This document shows positions 1 to 7,624 of a DNA stretch of 36,804 nt, in pieces. The DNA is from Bacillota bacterium (lineage in GTDB: Bacteria; Bacillota; Proteinivoracia; UBA4975; VEMY01), in NCBI GenBank assembly GCA_009711825.1, contig VEMY01000029.1, positions 1-36,804 of the forward strand, given 5' to 3'. Both the position numbers and the translations under genes were made by a program. The number at the start of each line of letters is the position of its first letter. The stretch's first letter is position 1. Below the pieces are notes generated by a model. The model did no database searches and had not been told where the DNA came from. It saw nothing but the letters and a program-made list of their open reading frames with translations.

Positions 1-2
1 AC

Positions 3-86
3 TGCCTGCTTTATGGGGCGCAGAATGGGAAAAGGATTATTGATGATCATATGGTGAAGGTAGTTGTCCAGGGAGAATTGCTCTAA
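3..86 (+). CDS. C-terminal end of an unidentified gene running in from the left edge
   Basis: An open frame enters at the window edge and stops at TAA 84-86. The visible 27 residues end in GKRIIDDHMVKVVVQGELL, which I cannot assign to a family. A 9-bp perfect inverted repeat overlaps the stop codon, as expected of a gene end followed by a terminator, and this is the main support for calling it coding. A phage-type recombinase at an island edge would fit the context, but nothing in the short fragment shows that. Confidence 0.35.
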   Translation, partial: CLLYGAQNGKRIIDDHMVKVVVQGELL

Positions 87-100
87 TTCTCCCTTCCCTT
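71..100 (+). terminator. Hairpin over the stop of the left-edge gene
   Basis: GGGAGAATT (71-79) pairs perfectly with AATTCTCCC (85-93) across a 5-nt loop, followed by a pyrimidine-rich tail (ttcccttctgg). The tail has few consecutive T residues, so termination may be weak. Confidence 0.45.
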
Positions 101-232
101 CTGGTCAGCTTGTCCGGCAAATTGCGGACAATTAATAACGTCTACTGAAGGGCATTATGGGTTAGCAGTTACAGAATATTTTTGTTATGCCTTAACAAAA
201 TGATGCTGATTTAAATCCTATCTACATAATAT
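94..232. other. Non-coding leader region with two inverted repeats and a possible promoter
   Basis: No convincing gene is seen here. Two short palindromes are present: TTGTCCG (110-116) with CGGACAA (125-131), and TTTTGTTA (180-187) with TAACAAAA (193-200). A -10-like TAATAT lies at 227-232, with only a poor -35 match about 17 nt upstream. Transcription from it would begin almost at the hairpin at 238. This is the most likely promoter region of the defence operon. Confidence 0.35.
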
Positions 233-277
233 AAAAACCCACCTTTCGAACTGGGTACGTTCCAGGTCGAAGGTGGG
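233..277. promoter_or_regulatory. Strong leader hairpin of the defence operon; terminator-like on the minus strand
   Basis: CCCACCTTTCGA (238-249) pairs with TCGAAGGTGGG (267-277) with one bulged T, and a second short stem (CTGG/CCAG) sits inside. On the plus strand no T-run follows, so it would be a structured 5' leader. On the minus strand the same hairpin is followed by TTTTTATATT, a good intrinsic terminator shape. It ends 38 nt before the effector start codon. Confidence 0.5.
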
Positions 278-315
278 TACAAAGTGGGACAACTATCTTG
301 AAAGGAGTTAACGTA

Positions 316-1437
316 ATGGAATTTAATGATTTCTTCAATCTAATGAAGCCTGTACTAGGTAAAGAAAGAGCAAATGCTAAGTTGCTGCGAAACCTAATAG
401 CTATGATTACTAAAACTGATAGCGATGTTGACCCTTCTCAAGATCAGTCAGACGACACTTTGAAATCTTATGCAAATGGAAAAAGACCTCTGTCTCCTGA
501 ATATGCTAGAGGAATAATCGCAGAGATTGAATTTCAAAATTTTGTTGATTCGGTGAATTCAAATGATGAGGTTGTCATTGAAAGATTGTCAGATGACTTC
601 AAGAAGTACGATCCAACAGTTACCCCTGATATAGTTGGCACAATAGCAGGAAAACTTTTCTTAGATATTCTTTATAAAGCTGCTGGTGAAAACACTGATA
701 TGCAAAAGTCCTTAGTGCCTTCAAAGTACTATTTAAGACATAGATATGGAAATCAATTGTTAGTAGAAAACAAAGGAAATTGCCCTTTTAAGGGGTGTGG
801 TAAGCCACTCTTATTGAGTAACAACGAAGCAACACAAGCATATTTTGACGTGATTATGATAGATAGTAAAAGTGGAGAGCATAGCGAAAATTTAATTGCT
901 CTTTGTCCAGAATGTGCAGCAAAATATTTACTATCTCATACAGAAGAAGATCAAATCGAATTGCAGGATTTAAAGATATCTATGTATGAACATTTATTAG
1001 CTCAAAAGTCACTTACGGATATAAAAGTTGAAGAAGCCATATCGGAAGTTTTGGAAGTTCTTTATGTAACCGATCCAAATGAAATCACCAAGTTAAATTA
1101 TGAGCCTCAATCTGTAAGAGATAAGATTTACAAGAATAATTACCTCTTGTTAAGAACTAATATTTTTAATGTGACTCAGTATTATCCGTTTATTGAAACA
1201 CAGTTTAAATCTTTGTCTAGAGAAAAGAAAATGAATTACAATGTGCTGTCCTCTCAAATAAGACTTGCGTATGTCACAGCATTAGAAAAAACAAGTGTAC
1301 AAGACGAAATTTATAATTCACTCGTTGAGTGGCTTATGGGCATCACAAACAAATCTAGAGTAGCCTGTGAGATAGTTATTTCGTTTTTTGTACAGAAATG
1401 TGAGGTATTTGATGCTCCTTCCAAACAAACTGTTTAG
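316..1437 (+). CDS. ABC-three-component (ABC-3C) system effector/CTD protein with degenerate HNH-like zinc module
   Basis: The 373-aa protein is recognised as the large non-ATPase component of an ABC-3C conflict system. Its N-terminal segment includes the TLKSYANGKRPLS stretch (about residues 48-60), which resembles ABC-3C proteins I know. Residues 156-200 form a zinc-ribbon/HNH-like core: C156, C161, then ENLIALCPEC with C197 and C200. The histidines expected of an HNH nuclease are absent; that position reads YFDVIMID. The C-terminal half is helical and featureless. ATG at 316 was chosen over the upstream TTG at 298 because AAAGGAG (301-307) is correctly spaced. The next gene overlaps it by 26 nt and all three ABC-3C components are present, which supports the assignment. 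Known systems of this type are proposed to sense invading nucleic acid; the effector activity here is unknown. Confidence 0.68.
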   Translation: MEFNDFFNLMKPVLGKERANAKLLRNLIAMITKTDSDVDPSQDQSDDTLKSYANGKRPLSPEYARGIIAEIEFQNFVDSVNSNDEVVIERLSDDFKKYDPTVTPDIVGTIAGKLFLDILYKAAGENTDMQKSLVPSKYYLRHRYGNQLLVENKGNCPFKGCGKPLLLSNNEATQAYFDVIMIDSKSGEHSENLIALCPECAAKYLLSHTEEDQIELQDLKISMYEHLLAQKSLTDIKVEEAISEVLEVLYVTDPNEITKLNYEPQSVRDKIYKNNYLLLRTNIFNVTQYYPFIETQFKSLSREKKMNYNVLSSQIRLAYVTALEKTSVQDEIYNSLVEWLMGITNKSRVACEIVISFFVQKCEVFDAPSKQTV

Positions 1438-1654
1438 CTATAAAGAAAGTACCCTGGCTAAATTTCCAGTACTTATAAAGTGCTTGAATAATAGACCTTA
1501 CTCGGTAGAGGAATTATATAACACAAACAAAAGTCTGTTTTTAGATATAGAAGATTATACAGAAACGTTATGCTGTCTTTATGCATTAAGAAAAATCGAA
1601 CTCGATGAAGAAAGGGGCGTGATTGTCTATGTTGAAGAAGATTCAATGCGATAA
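1412..1654 (+). CDS. ABC-3C system middle component
   Basis: This 80-aa protein begins MLLPNKLFSYKES, the opening I associate with ABC-3C middle components (MC6/7/8 group; which one is uncertain). The rest is a small winged-helix-like region (PYSVEELYNTN, then a beta hairpin ending GVIVYVEED). The start is ATG 1412 with GAGG at 1402-1405; an in-frame TTG at 1388 would add eight residues unlike the family. It overlaps the upstream effector gene by 26 nt and the downstream ATPase gene by 26 nt, so all three proteins are likely translationally coupled and made in fixed ratio. In the family model it bridges the ATPase and the effector. Confidence 0.7.
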   Translation: MLLPNKLFSYKESTLAKFPVLIKCLNNRPYSVEELYNTNKSLFLDIEDYTETLCCLYALRKIELDEERGVIVYVEEDSMR

Positions 1655-3266
1655 ATTTATTTCCAAAGGGCAAGTGCGTCCTCCAATAGAGTTTAAGAAA
1701 GGGCTTAATACGATTCTTGGAGGTGTAAATGCTAATAACTCCATCGGCAAATCAACTTTGCTACTTATTATTGACTTTGCATACGGCGGAAACTCCTACC
1801 TTGATAGCGATGCTGTAAACCAAGTGGGACTTCATACAATTAATTTTGAATTTGAGTTCAGTGGTACATCTTACTTTTTTTCTAGAAGCACCACGCAGAG
1901 AACTACAATTAATAAATGTGATGAGCAATTTAATTTTATTGAGGAAATTAACATTAAGGACTTTTTGTCTTTTTTACAAAAACAGTATGGAGTTAATTTT
2001 TATGGAAGTTCATTTAGAGAGCTAATTAGTCGCTACTTTAGAATCTATGGAAAGAACAACCATGACGAAAAGAAACCCCTACATAGTGATCCAAGAGAAA
2101 AAAATGTAGCCGCAATTACTGCATTAGAAAAGTTATTTAACTCATTTGAGGTTATTGAGTCATATAGAACAGAATTTAAAAAAGTATCTGACAAACTTGA
2201 TGCCCTCAAGAAAGCAAAGAAACAAGATGTTATCTCGTACGGCTCTATCACAACAAAGAAGCGTTATAACGAAAATCTTAATGAGTTAGAAAAACTCAAA
2301 GATGACTTGAGAGATCACACTGTCTCTAATAACTCCAATTATGTAGACCTTGATTTGAAACAGGCAGATCAGATAAGTCAAATCAAGACTCAATTAAACA
2401 TTTTGATGAGAAACAGAACATCAACTAAAACACAGTTAAGTCTTGTTGAGGACAATCTCTCTTCAAATCCGGAAGTTCATCATGGTCCTTATGAAGAGTT
2501 AGAGCAGTTCTTTCCCGGGGTTAATATTCGTAAAATATCTGAAATTGAATCTTTCCATGAAAAATTAAGTGAAATACTAATGGCTGAATATGAGCAACAG
2601 AGAAAAGAGTTGAGCAAAAATTTTGAACGATTAAACCATGAAATTGATAGCCTGAAAAATCAGCTTTCTAAGCATGGAGAGCCAGCAAACTATTCAACTA
2701 CTTACCTGAATAAATACAAAGAGTTAAATCTTGCTATAGAAAGACTTGAAGCACAAAACCGAGATTATCTTTTGGTTGAGGAATTAAATGTTTCAAAGAA
2801 GGGTGTCAAAGAACAACTTCAGAAAGTTGAAGAAGCTGAATTGCGTAGAATTGAGAGTAGCATCAATGAACAAATGGTGCGATTTAACGATAGAATCTAC
2901 GAGAAAAAAAGAAAAGCTCCTGTACTAGATTTAGACAGCGGTACAACTTATGAATTTTATACACCTGATGATAGCGGTACAGGAACTTCATATAAAAGTC
3001 TTATTGTATTTGACTTGAGTGTTTTAGAAACGACTATGTTGCCTGCACTGGCACATGATTCGCTTCTATTTAAAAACATCGGTGACGAACCACTCAATAA
3101 GATTATTCAGCTATACACAGAATTTGACAAACAAATATTCATTGCTTTTGACAAAGGAGAATCTTACTCAGAAGAAACGAGCCTGATTCTTAATAGCACT
3201 GCTGTCATTCGCCTTAACGAAAATGGCGATGAACTATTTGGACGCTCATGGAATATCAAGGAGTGA
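1629..3266 (+). CDS. DUF2326-type ABC/SMC-like ATPase of the ABC-3C system
   Basis: The 545-aa protein has a split ABC ATPase head. The Walker A region is GGVNANNSIGKST (31-43, Lys41), the N-x-N-S-I-G-K-S-T form typical of DUF2326 proteins. Residues of about 170-425 are rich in K, E, L and Q with heptad character and should form a long coiled coil. The second head half follows, with SLIVFDLSVLETTMLPALAHDSLLF and KQIFIAFDKGESY near the C-terminus. It is the energy-using sensor of the three-gene system, related to Rad50/SMC proteins. ATG 1629 matches the usual MLKKI start; TTG 1623, also near the AAGGGG at 1612-1617, is the alternative. The stop codon overlaps the Shine-Dalgarno of the next gene. 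Confidence 0.8.
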   Translation: MLKKIQCDKFISKGQVRPPIEFKKGLNTILGGVNANNSIGKSTLLLIIDFAYGGNSYLDSDAVNQVGLHTINFEFEFSGTSYFFSRSTTQRTTINKCDEQFNFIEEINIKDFLSFLQKQYGVNFYGSSFRELISRYFRIYGKNNHDEKKPLHSDPREKNVAAITALEKLFNSFEVIESYRTEFKKVSDKLDALKKAKKQDVISYGSITTKKRYNENLNELEKLKDDLRDHTVSNNSNYVDLDLKQADQISQIKTQLNILMRNRTSTKTQLSLVEDNLSSNPEVHHGPYEELEQFFPGVNIRKISEIESFHEKLSEILMAEYEQQRKELSKNFERLNHEIDSLKNQLSKHGEPANYSTTYLNKYKELNLAIERLEAQNRDYLLVEELNVSKKGVKEQLQKVEEAELRRIESSINEQMVRFNDRIYEKKRKAPVLDLDSGTTYEFYTPDDSGTGTSYKSLIVFDLSVLETTMLPALAHDSLLFKNIGDEPLNKIIQLYTEFDKQIFIAFDKGESYSEETSLILNSTAVIRLNENGDELFGRSWNIKE

Positions 3267-3271
3267 GAATT

Positions 3272-3505
3272 ATGGGTATCAGTCTAAGCTACAACCGATT
3301 ATGGAAACTGTTGATAGATAGAGGAATGACTAAGCAGGATCTTCGAAAAATCACAGGTCTAAGCTCTGCCCCAATTGCTAAGTTAGGCAAAGGTCAGAAT
3401 GTTAACACTGATGTTCTAATTAGAATATGTAATGCATTGAACTGTGATTTACACGACATTGTAGAAACTGTTCATGATGAAAATAATAATGGTAAGGAGA
3501 CTTAA
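3272..3505 (+). CDS. Small Cro/C1-family (HTH_26, YozG-like) regulator, possible R-M controller
   Basis: The 77-aa protein is one helix-turn-helix domain: LSYNRLWKLLIDRGMTKQDLRKITGLS, then SAPIAKLGKGQNVNTDVLIRICNALNCDLHDIVE. It belongs to the compact xenobiotic-response-element class. ATG 3272 is chosen because AAGGAG lies just upstream and overlaps the ATPase stop. An earlier ATG at 3248 lacks a site. It ends one base before the endonuclease gene, the position that controller (C) proteins hold in many type II R-M systems. It differs from classical C proteins in sequence, so a controller role is inferred from position. It could equally regulate the whole defence operon. Confidence 0.75.
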   Translation: MGISLSYNRLWKLLIDRGMTKQDLRKITGLSSAPIAKLGKGQNVNTDVLIRICNALNCDLHDIVETVHDENNNGKET

Positions 3506-3506
3506 A

Positions 3507-4610
3507 ATGAGTGCTGTTAGTGATAGAAATATAGCGATAAAACGGATTCTGGACACTCTATATGCCAGAGCGATAGATAATAATCTACCAATTGATGAAA
3601 GTGAATATCAAGAATCCTTGGATATGTTATTTTCAACAACGGCTTGGGGATTTAGGGAAATCCTCTTAGTTGTAGTTGTTGGTATGAACCTCGATTCTTC
3701 CTTTAGGGCATCCACAGGTCTTTACGATTGCAATCCAAGGGCAATTTATGAAGGACCTATCAAAGACTTTCTTATAGAAAAAGAGATACCCCACCGCAAA
3801 TCTGGTCCGCTTAACATTGCAAAAGCAACTGTTGGCTTAGATACCACCTGGGCTGCACAGAGAAGACCTGCAAAAGTTGCTTTTGAAGTTGTTAACCTAA
3901 TTCAATACATGGAAAATACAGAAGGTAACTCTATTAATAAAATAAATAATATTGGTGTCTCTTTATTACGCAGATTAATTTCCGAATCAAAACGTATTGA
4001 AGCACTTACTGTTGAAATTGAACCATCGGCAGATCCAGAGTTTTTATACTATTTGTGTTATGAGTTAATTACGAAAGTTCCGGATGCTGGAAACACACCA
4101 CAGAAGATAATTGCTTTCTTGTTGAAAAATTATCATAAATCCATGGATACAGGAATTATTGTAACCGGAGAAGAGGATCGTGCTTCTGTAACAAGCACAA
4201 CAAGTAAAAAACCTGGTGATGTAAATGAGGAATCTTCATGTGGTATCATTTATAAAGTCTACGAAGTTACGGTTAAACCTTTTGACTTAGCTAGAATCCG
4301 AGACTCATACGATAGTATATTAAAATATAACAGAGCAAATAATACTAGTTTAGATGAAATAATGGTAATCTGTCGTAAGGAAGATTGTCCAATCGATATT
4401 AAAAATAGCGGTCTACATTCATTTATTGGTAGCTATGGATATCAAAACATCACGTACTACTATTTAGATATTTACGAGTGGATTTCAGATAGACTTTACC
4501 ATATGACCCAAGAAGGCCGTATTGCTTTCTACAATGATTTGAATTCCTACATATCGGATATAAATACAGCTGAAACTGTTAAGGTATTATGGAGTAATTT
4601 ACATCAATGA
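3507..4610 (+). CDS. Predicted type II restriction endonuclease, SacI-family-like
   Basis: The 367-aa protein carries GLYDCNPRAIYEGP (71-84) and IPHRKSGPLNIAKA (94-107), which I associate with SacI-type endonucleases (RE_SacI). The stretch YKVYEVTVKPF (249-259) could hold a PD-(D/E)xK-type strand, with E253 and K257 as candidate catalytic residues; this is tentative. The start is ATG 3507 behind TAAGGAGA. Pairing with the convergent C5-methyltransferase strongly supports a restriction role. If the family call is right, the site may be GAGCTC or a relative, but specificity cannot be read from the sequence. Co-transcription with ABC-3C upstream is unusual. Confidence 0.65.
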   Translation: MSAVSDRNIAIKRILDTLYARAIDNNLPIDESEYQESLDMLFSTTAWGFREILLVVVVGMNLDSSFRASTGLYDCNPRAIYEGPIKDFLIEKEIPHRKSGPLNIAKATVGLDTTWAAQRRPAKVAFEVVNLIQYMENTEGNSINKINNIGVSLLRRLISESKRIEALTVEIEPSADPEFLYYLCYELITKVPDAGNTPQKIIAFLLKNYHKSMDTGIIVTGEEDRASVTSTTSKKPGDVNEESSCGIIYKVYEVTVKPFDLARIRDSYDSILKYNRANNTSLDEIMVICRKEDCPIDIKNSGLHSFIGSYGYQNITYYYLDIYEWISDRLYHMTQEGRIAFYNDLNSYISDINTAETVKVLWSNLHQ

Positions 4611-4617
4611 ATAATTA

Positions 4618-4670
4618 AAGACATGAGAGGCTAGCGTTATAATCTAACACCAGCCTCTCATGTCTTATTT
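4618..4670. terminator. Bidirectional terminator between endonuclease and methyltransferase
   Basis: AAGACATGAGAGGCT (4618-4632) and AGCCTCTCATGTCTT (4652-4666) are 15-bp perfect arms with a 19-nt loop. T-rich tracts follow on both strands (TTATTTATT on plus, TTTAATTATT on minus). It separates two convergent genes and overlaps the methyltransferase stop codon. Confidence 0.85.
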
Positions 4671-5735
4671 ATTGCTTATTTCTAAATAGTTTATAGTTGC
4701 TTTTGCTACTGCTTCTGCTAATTTACATGGTACGGCATTCCCTATTTGAGTATAGATTTTCCCTTTATTGCCGCAAAATATATAGTCATCTGGAAACGTT
4801 TGAATTCGAGCAGCTTCTTTTATTGTTATACGTCTTAGTCTGGAAGGTGCCTCGTTAAACTCAGGTGCTATTGTCCCATCTTGTAATTTTTTATGATAGT
4901 CAACAACCCAATCTTCGTTAGCATCTCCGTAAAGATAATCTTCATCCACGAATGGTGTCTTGTTCCCTCCCATAGAGGCAGGTAGCGTATTTGCATATCC
5001 ATCAACATCAATCGGTCTTCCTTGCCCGTTAAAGTACATACCTGCATAAGGTGACTTTCTCATCACAGGACGAGTAGCAAATGTTATTTTCGCTGTACAA
5101 GTGAGTGGATTAGACTCTGTTCCAGCACGACCTATTCCATTCAAAACTTCTTTAATAACAGGTGCCTTAGTTTTTTGTTCTTCTAGCAGATTATTCATAT
5201 TATATTCGAAGAAAGGATCTTGATTATCTTTAATTCCAATAAAGAAAACTCTTACTCTTTTTTGTGGAACACCAAACTCTGTCGCATTTAATACAATTGG
5301 AATGCATAAGTATCCCATTTCACGAGTTCTATTCATGAATTTTTCTCTCACTGCGCTCCATTTTTCCAAGACTCCTAAGGCCTTAACATTTTCCATTACA
5401 AATGCTTTAGGTTGTACTATCTCTACCGCATCAAGAAATGTGAATATTAGTTTACTACGCTCATCATCAGGATCCATTTTACCTGCCACAGAAAATCCTT
5501 GACACGGTGGTCCTCCAAAAACAAAATCTATACCTCTATAGAGCGCAAGGCTATCAATAACATTGTTTATATCATCATTTACCATTACACCGTTTGAGTG
5601 ATTCGCATTATATGTTTCTGCAGCCTCTTTCATTAGCTCGTTAGCAAATACAGTTTTAATACCAGCTTTTTCGAAGCCGATATCCATACCCCCAGCCCCA
5701 GTAAACAATGAAATAGCACTATATTGGTTACTCAT
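4665..5735 (-). CDS. DNA (cytosine-5-)methyltransferase, cognate of the restriction endonuclease
   Basis: The 356-aa protein shows the ordered motifs of C5 methyltransferases. Motif I is SLFTGAGG (9-16), which binds S-adenosylmethionine. Motif IV is GGPPCQGFS with catalytic Cys78. Motif VI is ENV (115-117), motif VIII is QKRVR (158-162) and motif X is QIGNAVP near the C-terminus. The short region between motifs VIII and X holds the target-recognition domain. ATG 5735 gives GGGGGG in the right place and the usual N-terminus; an ATG run at 5750-5756 is an alternative. It protects the host genome from the endonuclease encoded on the opposite strand. The 8-nt overlap with the AbrB-like gene upstream indicates coupled translation. 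Confidence 0.93.
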   Translation of the reverse strand: MSNQYSAISLFTGAGGMDIGFEKAGIKTVFANELMKEAAETYNANHSNGVMVNDDINNVIDSLALYRGIDFVFGGPPCQGFSVAGKMDPDDERSKLIFTFLDAVEIVQPKAFVMENVKALGVLEKWSAVREKFMNRTREMGYLCIPIVLNATEFGVPQKRVRVFFIGIKDNQDPFFEYNMNNLLEEQKTKAPVIKEVLNGIGRAGTESNPLTCTAKITFATRPVMRKSPYAGMYFNGQGRPIDVDGYANTLPASMGGNKTPFVDEDYLYGDANEDWVVDYHKKLQDGTIAPEFNEAPSRLRRITIKEAARIQTFPDDYIFCGNKGKIYTQIGNAVPCKLAEAVAKATINYLEISNK

Positions 5736-5922
5736 TATTCGTCCCCCCATCATCATCTTTACAGATGCGTAAAATCAAAGAACCATCGGAAGCATCCAAG
5801 TATATATCAAATTTTGTTTTTCCTTTTTCTACATTCATATTGGAAAGAATTGCTTTGGGTAAACGAACTCTCATGTCCTGTTGCAAAAGATATGTATCTA
5901 AATAAATATATGAATTAGTCAT
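5728..5922 (-). CDS. AbrB/SpoVT-like swapped-hairpin DNA-binding protein
   Basis: The 64-aa protein has the compact beta-rich pattern of AbrB/MazE N-terminal domains: QDMRVRLPKAILSNMNVEKGKTKFDIYLDASDGSLILRI. The VRLPKAILSNMNVEKG core matches the family's R-x-x-L-P-x-x-I-x-x-x-L-x-I-x-x-G pattern. Shine-Dalgarno AGGAGGA precedes ATG 5922. It is the first gene of the minus-strand operon and overlaps the methyltransferase start. No toxin partner is adjacent, so I infer a transcriptional regulator of the methyltransferase rather than an antitoxin. The C-terminal acidic tail (KDDDGGTNNE) is unusual. Confidence 0.72.
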   Translation of the reverse strand: MTNSYIYLDTYLLQQDMRVRLPKAILSNMNVEKGKTKFDIYLDASDGSLILRICKDDDGGTNNE

Positions 5923-5953
5923 ACATCTTCCTCCTAAGCACTAGCTTAGTCTA

Positions 5954-5988
5954 ATTATACCCTAATTTCAGTCTAACTTCAAGACTGA
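5954..5988 (-). promoter_or_regulatory. Promoter and inverted-repeat operator of the AbrB-methyltransferase operon
   Basis: On the minus strand TTGAAG (5977-5982) and TATAAT (5954-5959) are separated by exactly 17 nt. The -35 box sits inside the inverted repeat TCAGTCT-7 nt-AGACTGA (5968-5988), and a third related AGACTAA lies just downstream of the -10. A protein bound here would block the -35, so repression by the AbrB-like or HTH protein is plausible. Confidence 0.72.
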
Positions 5989-5999
5989 TTATAGACAGT

Positions 6000-6045
6000 C
6001 ATCTTGTCAACTCATTATTATTTTGCCAACCATCTTATCAACTCA
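6000..6045. repeat. Imperfect direct repeats at the island edge
   Basis: CATCTTGTCAACTCA (6000-6014) recurs as CATCTTATCAACTCA (6031-6045) with one mismatch, at a 31-nt period. Multiple short repeats of this kind are typical of transposon ends such as those of IS21-like elements, but no transposase gene is intact here. Confidence 0.5.
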
Positions 6046-6163
6046 CTTAGCCATCAGCGGCATTTGCCGATGTCTTTTCAAATTCATCAATCTTGGATAA
6101 CTTCCCTCAAAGCCAAAATCCGTGATTATCCTTCCGGCTTAGAACCAGACCTTAAATCACGGA
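6043..6163. other. Possible insertion-sequence remnant between island and rlmD
   Basis: No intact gene. A 9-bp inverted repeat TCCGTGATT (6119-6127) / AATCACGGA (6155-6163) lies near rlmD. A short minus-strand frame ending at 6043 reads ITDFGFEGSYPRLMNLKR, which weakly recalls a transposase fragment. Base composition changes here from AT-rich to host-like. Confidence 0.25.
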
Positions 6164-6193
6164 AAGCCTTTATTTACTTATCTTGTTACACCC

Positions 6194-7546
6194 TTACTTA
6201 TTCGCCCTTGACATCAATACTACCGTCTCAACGTGGCTTGTATGAGGAAACATGTCTACCGGCTGAGCCTCACGGGTTTCATACCCCAACTCCTTAAGCA
6301 TCTTCAGATCACGTGCCAGAGTTGCCGGATTGCAGCTGACGTAGACAATCCGTTGGGGGTCCGCCTGGGCCACTGCATCCAGCAGCATAGGCGCACACCC
6401 TTTACGGGGCGGGTCCAGTATGACCACATCGGCTCTGAGCCCTTCATTGGCGAGCTTGGGCAAAGTGCGTTCGGCATAGCCGAGATGGAATTCAGCATTG
6501 TCAATAGCATTGAGCTGAGCATTAAAGCGCGCGTCGTTGACGGCGCTTTTGTTGTTTTCGATGCCGATTACCTTTTGAGCATGTTTGGCAATATACAAAC
6601 CAATGCTGCCGGTGCCGCTGTATACATCCAGAACCACCTCACTCCCCTGGAGTGCAGCGTACTTTTTTACCTGTTCATAGATTTTTAAAGCGCCCTGATT
6701 GTTGACCTGCCAAAATGAGCGGGCAGAGATTTTAAACTTCATGTCTCCAAGAGTATCAATAATGTATCCCGGGCCCCAAATGACTTCCTCTTTGCTTCCC
6801 ATGATCACATTGGTGGGATGGGGATTTTGATTCAGAACCAGGGTCTCGAGGGTGGGCAGTGCCTGGCGCAACTTACGAAGAAACTGCTCCCGACCAGGAA
6901 ACTGTAATTTGGCAACGACCAATACTAAAAGCGACTGTCCGGTTGCCTCCGAGTGGCGGGTGACAATGTGCCGGAGCAGTCCATCCCAGGGCACCAGTTT
7001 GCATTCTCTGGCCACTTCCGCAGTAATTCGGGTCAGTTGATTGTTGGGACCATGCTGAATAGCACATTCCTCAACCGGCACCAGTTCATTGCTACGAGGG
7101 CGGTAGAGCCCTGCGGTGGGCCTGCCTTCATAGACAGCAACCGGGGCCTGCATTTTATTGCGATAATTCCAGGACCGGGTAGGCAATGTGTCGCGGACAA
7201 GAGCCGGGTCGACGCCCCCAATCCGCTCCAATGAAGTTTTGGTGGTCTCTGTCTTTATTCTCAGTTGCTCTTCATAATCCAGGTGCTGAAGATTACAGCC
7301 GCCGCATTGACCAAACCACTGACATTTGGGATCTATCCGCTTACCTGTCTCCACTATCTCCTGTATCAAGCCACGGCCATAATCTTTTTGAACGCTGATT
7401 ATTTCAACAGTCACCACATCTTCAGGGGCCGCAAAGGGAACAAAAACGGTATACCCTTCAACTTTGGCCACACCCTCGCCCTGGTGGCTGATTGATTCAA
7501 TTTTAACAGTCGGCTTATCACCAATTTTGACCGGGGCAGCTTTCAT
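6194..7546 (-). CDS. rlmD: 23S rRNA (uracil-C5)-methyltransferase of the RlmD/RumA (TrmA) family
   Basis: The 450-aa protein has an N-terminal TRAM domain (about 10-66), then an Fe-S cluster motif C75-x5-C81-x2-C84 (CQWFGQCGGC) with a further Cys in VPVEECAIQ. The C-terminal Rossmann methyltransferase contains LDVYSGTGSIGLY for SAM binding, LDPPRKGC, and the catalytic cysteine motif VYVSCNPATLARD. It methylates a uracil at C5 in 23S rRNA; Firmicutes carry several paralogues, so the exact position (747 or 1939) is not fixed by sequence. ATG 7546 is preferred to GTG 7555 because GGAG lies 8 nt upstream. Confidence 0.9.
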   Translation of the reverse strand: MKAAPVKIGDKPTVKIESISHQGEGVAKVEGYTVFVPFAAPEDVVTVEIISVQKDYGRGLIQEIVETGKRIDPKCQWFGQCGGCNLQHLDYEEQLRIKTETTKTSLERIGGVDPALVRDTLPTRSWNYRNKMQAPVAVYEGRPTAGLYRPRSNELVPVEECAIQHGPNNQLTRITAEVARECKLVPWDGLLRHIVTRHSEATGQSLLVLVVAKLQFPGREQFLRKLRQALPTLETLVLNQNPHPTNVIMGSKEEVIWGPGYIIDTLGDMKFKISARSFWQVNNQGALKIYEQVKKYAALQGSEVVLDVYSGTGSIGLYIAKHAQKVIGIENNKSAVNDARFNAQLNAIDNAEFHLGYAERTLPKLANEGLRADVVILDPPRKGCAPMLLDAVAQADPQRIVYVSCNPATLARDLKMLKELGYETREAQPVDMFPHTSHVETVVLMSRANK

Positions 7547-7624
7547 AGCTTTCACTCCAAATATGATATACCTTATCTTACCACAAAAAAATGACCGTGC
7601 TCGAGCTGGGTTTTATTCTAACCC

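Follow-up and report, generated by a model that had tools for sequence, protein, structure and literature searches.

It has long been asked how mobile restriction-modification (R-M) systems, on entering another host, balance methyltransferase against restriction enzyme, and the answers given so far are mostly C proteins and self-repressing methyltransferases. The question is raised again by a locus of a Bacillota bacterium (assembly GCA_009711825.1, contig VEMY01000029.1), in which a DNA methyltransferase gene is preceded by a small gene, here named Abr, and by a promoter that carries repeated near-palindromic sequences. The window, which is the whole stretch of 36,804 nucleotides (nt) that was analyzed, also encodes on the opposite strand a helix-turn-helix (HTH) regulator followed by R, a putative restriction endonuclease gene. 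An initial annotation of this DNA had interpreted Abr as an AbrB-like protein involved in an autoregulated control of methyltransferase dose. The comparison of the locus with its relatives suggests that Abr and its repeats look like a portable dose governor for R-M systems, for which no earlier description was found.

Repeated sites over the methyltransferase promoter

The promoter TTGAAG-17-TATAAT, previously noted as near-consensus, was found on the minus strand and matches the sigma-70-type consensus at 10 of 12 positions. The initial annotation had also placed a 7-bp palindrome over the −35 element, and TCAGTCT (5968–5974) and AGACTGA (5982–5988) indeed form a perfect inverted repeat with a 7-bp spacer. 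In the window sequence by itself, promoter-like sites were not more frequent than expected by chance (8 versus 7.0 in shuffles), and an inverted repeat of this kind appeared in 14% of shuffles of the region 5900–6060, which makes it unremarkable on its own. The comparison of loci showed that the upstream arm AGACTGA is not conserved in that form among relatives, and that the conserved operator unit is instead the 9-bp near-palindrome TYAGNCTRA, which recurs at exact 11-bp steps over the −35 element, the spacer, the −10 element, and the start site. The palindrome is therefore read as two adjacent sites of this 11-bp lattice that were taken for arms. The third half-site, which had been proposed past the −10 element, was recovered as a further copy of the unit (TTAGACTAA, 5954–5946).

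The relatives were collected by a methyltransferase scan of about 85,000 genomes, which gave 38 loci, 10 of them with Abr immediately upstream, while further Abr genes came from IMG/VR contigs, the phages Javan105 and TPDSL_ph1, and one more genome. The resulting comparison sample consisted of 28 Abr-encoding loci, with promoters forming 22 clusters at 75% identity. At most 100 bp upstream of the 28 Abr starts there were 39 perfect TYAGNCTRA sites, distributed over 27 of the loci, against an expected mean of 0.38 and a maximum of 3 in 500 rounds of dinucleotide shuffles. Among sites matching at least 7 of the 8 informative bases, 22 pairs of neighbors were spaced by 11 bp and 13 pairs by 22 bp, and no other value was observed. 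The best-scoring promoters had a 17-bp spacer in all 28 loci (spacers of 16–18 bp were allowed, with a slight preference for 17 bp) and TTGANN in 27; the −35 element of the phage locus L060 is doubtful. In all promoters one site region lies directly after the −35 element, and a second one starts from the −10 end. The columns of high information over the 22 clusters were those of the −35 element, the −10 element, and the operator, and the sequence upstream of the −35 element was mostly near random. The common design consists of TTGAYT, TTAGACTRA, TTAG running into TATAAT, and TAGNCTRA, often with an extra TTAGTCTRA ahead of the Shine–Dalgarno sequence. The TTAG of the middle lattice position is kept in relatives with 0.8–1.2 bits per column, and several relatives have TYAGNTTGA in register at the −35 position. 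In loci L009 and L010 the array spans at least six successive 11-bp steps, about 30–100 bp upstream of Abr and well beyond the −35 element, so that systems may differ in how many lattice sites they have.

The enzymes encoded downstream of Abr vary, and they include C5 methyltransferases of two kinds, D12 N6-adenine methyltransferases, and enzymes of the N6_N4 type, with the phages Javan105 and TPDSL_ph1 among their sources. A later-found locus (L087), which has two further DNA methyltransferase-like genes, carries a weaker version of the operator, in phase. No perfect site was found in 10.6 kb of sequence upstream of 27 methyltransferase homologs without Abr, which are 26%–73% identical. When IMG/VR was scanned with a strict pattern of the operator alone, three matches were obtained, every one directly ahead of an Abr gene; a looser pattern had low specificity and gave seven matches, three at Abr genes and four apparently by chance. 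Judged from these sequences, the operator follows Abr and not any methyltransferase family. Pattern searches of the window's own 3.09-Mb genome found the 22-bp operator pair once, with one mismatch allowed, and therefore Abr looks like a local rather than a global regulator. Abr relatives are rare, as they were found in two of 398 genomes of the phylum, including the window's own, and in one of 28 in the family of genome G203; a plasmid search found no Abr relative.

The Abr protein and its proposed role

The relatives of Abr have 58–66 residues and are 52%–74% identical, with 19 invariant positions located mostly in the motif YLDTYxLQQDMRxRxPK. The region corresponding to this motif is the one through which AbrB/MazE proteins contact DNA. 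The hhalign alignment of Abr with AbrB/MazE proteins encoded elsewhere in its own genome covered the core with a probability of 91% and an E-value of 9e-7, as compared to 0.3% for an HTH profile used as a negative control, and neither Pfam nor profile comparison detected an HTH in Abr. The AlphaFold2 (AF2) model has a strand-loop-helix-strand-strand topology (E5–7, H23–28, E38–43, E48–53), and its seven best PDB matches in Foldseek were small DNA-binding proteins, including MazE and Sso7c4, which by its title belongs to the SpoVT-AbrB superfamily, with probabilities of 0.23–0.91 and insignificant E-values. The best match in a viral library, 60% identical, is annotated as AbrB-family. The match of Abr to TIGR02609 was weak, and a sequence search of the PDB with Abr gave chance matches alone. 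These comparisons make it highly probable that Abr has the AbrB/MazE fold, as had been claimed in the initial annotation, and Abr is presumed to bind DNA. Separately, 15 of 22 Abr relatives weakly match the NCBIfam model MHO_1590 from Mycoplasma hominis (best E-value 0.0016).

The Abr and methyltransferase genes overlap by 8 nt (ATGAGTAA, 5735–5728), which agrees with the overlap reported earlier. The methyltransferase start at 5735 is more likely than that at 5756 of the longer open reading frame (ORF), because most relatives align from residue 7–8 and a G-rich, Shine–Dalgarno-like stretch precedes 5735. Stop/start overlaps or near-overlaps were seen again in other loci, and the two genes are probably translationally coupled.

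We propose, with a probability of about 0.8, that Abr acts as a portable autorepressor dedicated to DNA-methyltransferase operons and caps the methyltransferase dose. Abr and the methyltransferase would be made from one transcript, and Abr dimers would bind the TYAGNCTRA sites cooperatively, one dimer per site. Such sites would all lie on one face of the DNA, because 11 bp is about one helical turn, and their occupation over the −35 element, spacer, −10 element, and start would keep RNA polymerase off the near-consensus promoter. In a newly entered host that is still unmodified, the promoter would work at full strength, allowing methylation to be established; Abr would then build up alongside the methyltransferase and throttle the promoter to a maintenance level. 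R and the HTH regulator would be expressed from a separate, convergent operon, which has no Abr operator. Negative autoregulation is the natural reading, because the sites cover RNA polymerase contacts and the promoter is otherwise strong. The binding of Abr, one dimer per site, the cooperativity, the repression, and its physiological purpose are what we infer from comparative data; the sequences themselves show the order and overlap of the genes, the operator array with its phase, its conservation and its single occurrence in the genome, and its co-occurrence with Abr across methyltransferase families. With regard to the earlier proposal, the co-occurrence of operator and Abr in the 28 loci argues strongly for autoregulation, and the dose control and the sign of regulation are deduced.

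Several points weigh against this proposal. The choice between repression and activation is made from the position of the sites alone. The upstream lattice position of the window (5988) is one base off the 11-bp register. The Abr loci are of common ancestry, so the counts obtained from them are not fully independent. The Abr of the window has no Pfam match to MazE/AbrB, and PF04014 matched one of 22 relatives with an E-value of 0.2. The confidence of the Abr model is moderate, with a predicted local distance difference test (pLDDT) score of 75, and its best PDB match in Foldseek has an E-value of 0.41. Finally, part of the 18 stretches, out of 28, in which the HTH gene was not found are short contigs or record ends.

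An extended form of the proposal, to which we give slightly less than an even chance, is that Abr and its array form a self-contained governor cassette swapped among unrelated methyltransferase families and phages, acting by polymerization of AbrB-fold dimers phased by 11 bp on one DNA face, in which the number of lattice sites, from two to about six, would set the methyltransferase ceiling. If this is true, Abr would represent an undescribed class of R-M regulator, for which the controlled step is modification and not restriction. The dose question would become testable with a repressor that acts on the methyltransferase side and has an operator code that is short, readable, and common to unrelated enzymes. 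R-M operons and methyltransferase operons of phages could also be searched for by this code, and Abr would provide a small repressor, of 60 residues, whose operators are phased.

Alternative explanations and known systems

An improbable alternative is that the binding of Abr to the array activates the promoter, or just organizes it, instead of repressing it. The sign of regulation is unreadable from the sequence, and C proteins activate at low dose and repress at high dose (PMC12255303). On the other hand, the sites are located within the spacer and over the −10 element and start, and the promoter appears to need no activating help, because the 17-bp spacer and near-consensus elements are already present in all 28 loci.

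It is also unlikely that the operator is bound by the HTH_26 protein, acting on the methyltransferase promoter in the manner of a C protein, with Abr having another role. The HTH gene recurs in 10 of the 28 loci, including L059 and L061 with unrelated methyltransferases, classical controllers are small HTH proteins encoded ahead of R, and C-boxes likewise have AGTC cores (PMC5282649). However, the operator occurs where no HTH homolog was found, for instance in loci L008 and L011, for which about 6 kb downstream were available, and in phage Javan105 (4.7 kb examined). No operator arrays were found near HTH or R genes in any locus, and one far pair, in L056, fits loosely. A copy of TTAGACTGA at the start of the HTH gene of the window (3279–3287) was considered as an HTH operator and rejected, as it is unconserved: the codons that form it are absent from the relatives, which read MRISYNK. 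Operator and Abr thus co-occur whether or not an HTH gene is found nearby, consistent with the earlier view that this regulation is separate from the HTH regulator, and on this comparison the HTH protein is not needed for the Abr operator and is a recurring, non-universal partner.

The possibility that the conserved sequence is the methyltransferase family's own operator, of the SsoII type, or a methylation site, appears very remote. Methyltransferases with an N-terminal HTH repress their own promoters (PMC3978073; PMC3874152), but the identical operator stands in front of C5, D12, and N6/N4 enzymes, which are unrelated, in all cases with Abr, the homologs without Abr lack it upstream, and no additional N-terminal domain was detected by Pfam in the methyltransferase of the window. 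A chance palindrome on an ordinary promoter, next to an unrelated small ORF, is suggested by the shuffle frequency obtained from the window alone, but it can hardly be reconciled with the phylogenetic footprint over 22 promoter clusters, the phase of the sites, and their co-occurrence with Abr.

Under the preferred reading, in which Abr represses its own operon, the closest functional analog is RptR, which represses defense islands with type I R-M and DarTG2 systems (Zhang et al. 2025, PMC12255303). RptR is the first ORF of the type I R-M island and represses itself through three TTTAGCTAA repeats over the −10 element; it is an all-helical protein of 79 amino acids (aa), which recognizes the 6-bp TAGCTA in 9-bp repeats and is found mostly in Gammaproteobacteria (PMC12255303). 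Similarly, Abr is the first ORF of the methyltransferase operon, has repeated palindromes over the −10 element, and is conserved together with its sites. In contrast, Abr has about 60 aa, a beta-rich AbrB-fold model, and TYAGNCTRA sites with an unpaired central base and an 11-bp period, and it is present mainly in Firmicutes, in addition to Atopobium and phages, with type II-like methyltransferases. With these differences in fold, recognized site, repeat period, hosts, and type of R-M system, Abr is not an RptR.

Abr also resembles C proteins, which are small, dedicated regulators carried by R-M systems and directed at repeated palindromic boxes in the promoters of these systems. However, C proteins are HTH proteins encoded in an operon with R, and they time R expression, whereas Abr has the AbrB fold in its model, is encoded with the methyltransferase, and has its operator on the methyltransferase promoter. 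The C-box consists of inverted repeats with an AGTC core, and the Abr operator has a GACT/AGTC core in another arrangement. With MazE/AbrB antitoxins Abr shares the probable fold, the position as first gene of a putatively autoregulated operon, and the palindromic operator over the promoter, and the methyltransferase functions as the antidote when an R-M system is viewed as an addiction pair. The partner of Abr is, however, a DNA methyltransferase, with no toxin gene among the downstream genes checked, and the 58–66 aa Abr proteins have no evident toxin-binding C-terminal extension. The negative feedback, in which operator occlusion caps the methyltransferase, would be the same as for the self-repressing SsoII/Ecl18kI enzymes, in which the methyltransferase represses through an HTH domain of its own, unlike Abr, which is separate, coupled, and found with many methyltransferase families. 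Nor is Abr a controller of the HsdC type of Mollicutes, which has (GTGTTAN5)2 as its site. No AbrB-type regulator of R-M genes was found in the literature covered, which takes in few subscription journals and neither bioRxiv nor REBASE notes. One paper with many mentions of AbrB together with methylase (PMC11473606) was set aside, as AbrB is there a plasmid name.

Neighboring restriction and defense genes

The coordinates of the operator, the promoter, and the genes around them are collected in Table 1.

Table 1. Features of the Abr locus in the window
Feature	Position	Strand	Basis
ABC-3C defense genes (CTD11, MC7, DUF2326 ATPase), apparent operon shared with HTH and R	298..3266	+	Pfam
HTH_26 (PF13443) Cro/C1-type regulator, upstream of R	3248..3505	+	Pfam, locus comparison
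R, probable restriction endonuclease of type II, predicted fold resembling EcoT38I, convergent with methyltransferase	about 3507..4610	+	AF2, Foldseek
Terminator-like 20-bp hairpin between convergent methyltransferase and R genes	4619..4665	.	hairpin search
C5-cytosine DNA methyltransferase, PF00145 (E-value 2e-70)	4665..5735	-	Pfam, ORF list
Abr, 64-codon ORF (64 aa), opens methyltransferase transcript, proposed autorepressor with probable AbrB/MazE fold	5728..5922	-	ORF list, relatives, structure model
Shine–Dalgarno AGGAGG of Abr	5930..5935	-	sequence
Operator site TTAGACTAA, perfect, over -10 end and start site, 22 bp from spacer site	5946..5954	-	pattern match, relatives
-10 element TATAAT, 17-bp spacer to -35, predicted start site near 5947	5954..5959	-	promoter scan
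Degenerate middle lattice position, TTAG merging into -10, 11 bp from either perfect site	5957..5965	-	sequence
Spacer operator site TTAGACTGA, perfect TYAGNCTRA, begins directly after -35	5968..5976	-	pattern match, relatives
-35 element TTGAAG	5977..5982	-	promoter scan
Degenerate lattice position over -35, TCAGTCTTGA, with TCAG at 5988	5979..5988	-	sequence

The R protein had no match in Pfam, NCBIfam, or PADLOC, and its relatives are 62%–69% identical. The first PDB match of its AF2 model (pLDDT 82) was the restriction endonuclease EcoT38I, with an E-value of 6e-7 and a probability of 1.0, and therefore R and the methyltransferase are probably a type II R-M system, with R a probable member of an unannotated type II endonuclease family. 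No operator in the form of a TYAGNCTRA array was found in the examined sequence of the R/HTH operon. An HTH_26 gene recurs near R beside methyltransferases of other families in loci L059 and L061 (10409–10612), which suggests that HTH_26 could be a second portable regulator. Loci L050 and L051 have the same Abr, operator, and methyltransferase but differing convergent genes, which suggests that the restriction side may be exchanged against a fixed modification side.

An Rfam scan of positions 1–7600 detected no RNA family, and no copy of the operator was found in positions 1–297. The ABC-3C module is complete and adjoins the Abr-methyltransferase operon, an arrangement for which L050 can also be cited. 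The identical order of seven genes was observed in the Atopobium locus L014 (5274–9615), and other loci carry different accessory genes in this place. Close to the end of the contig, a strong hairpin (236–281) directly precedes the ABC-3C operon.
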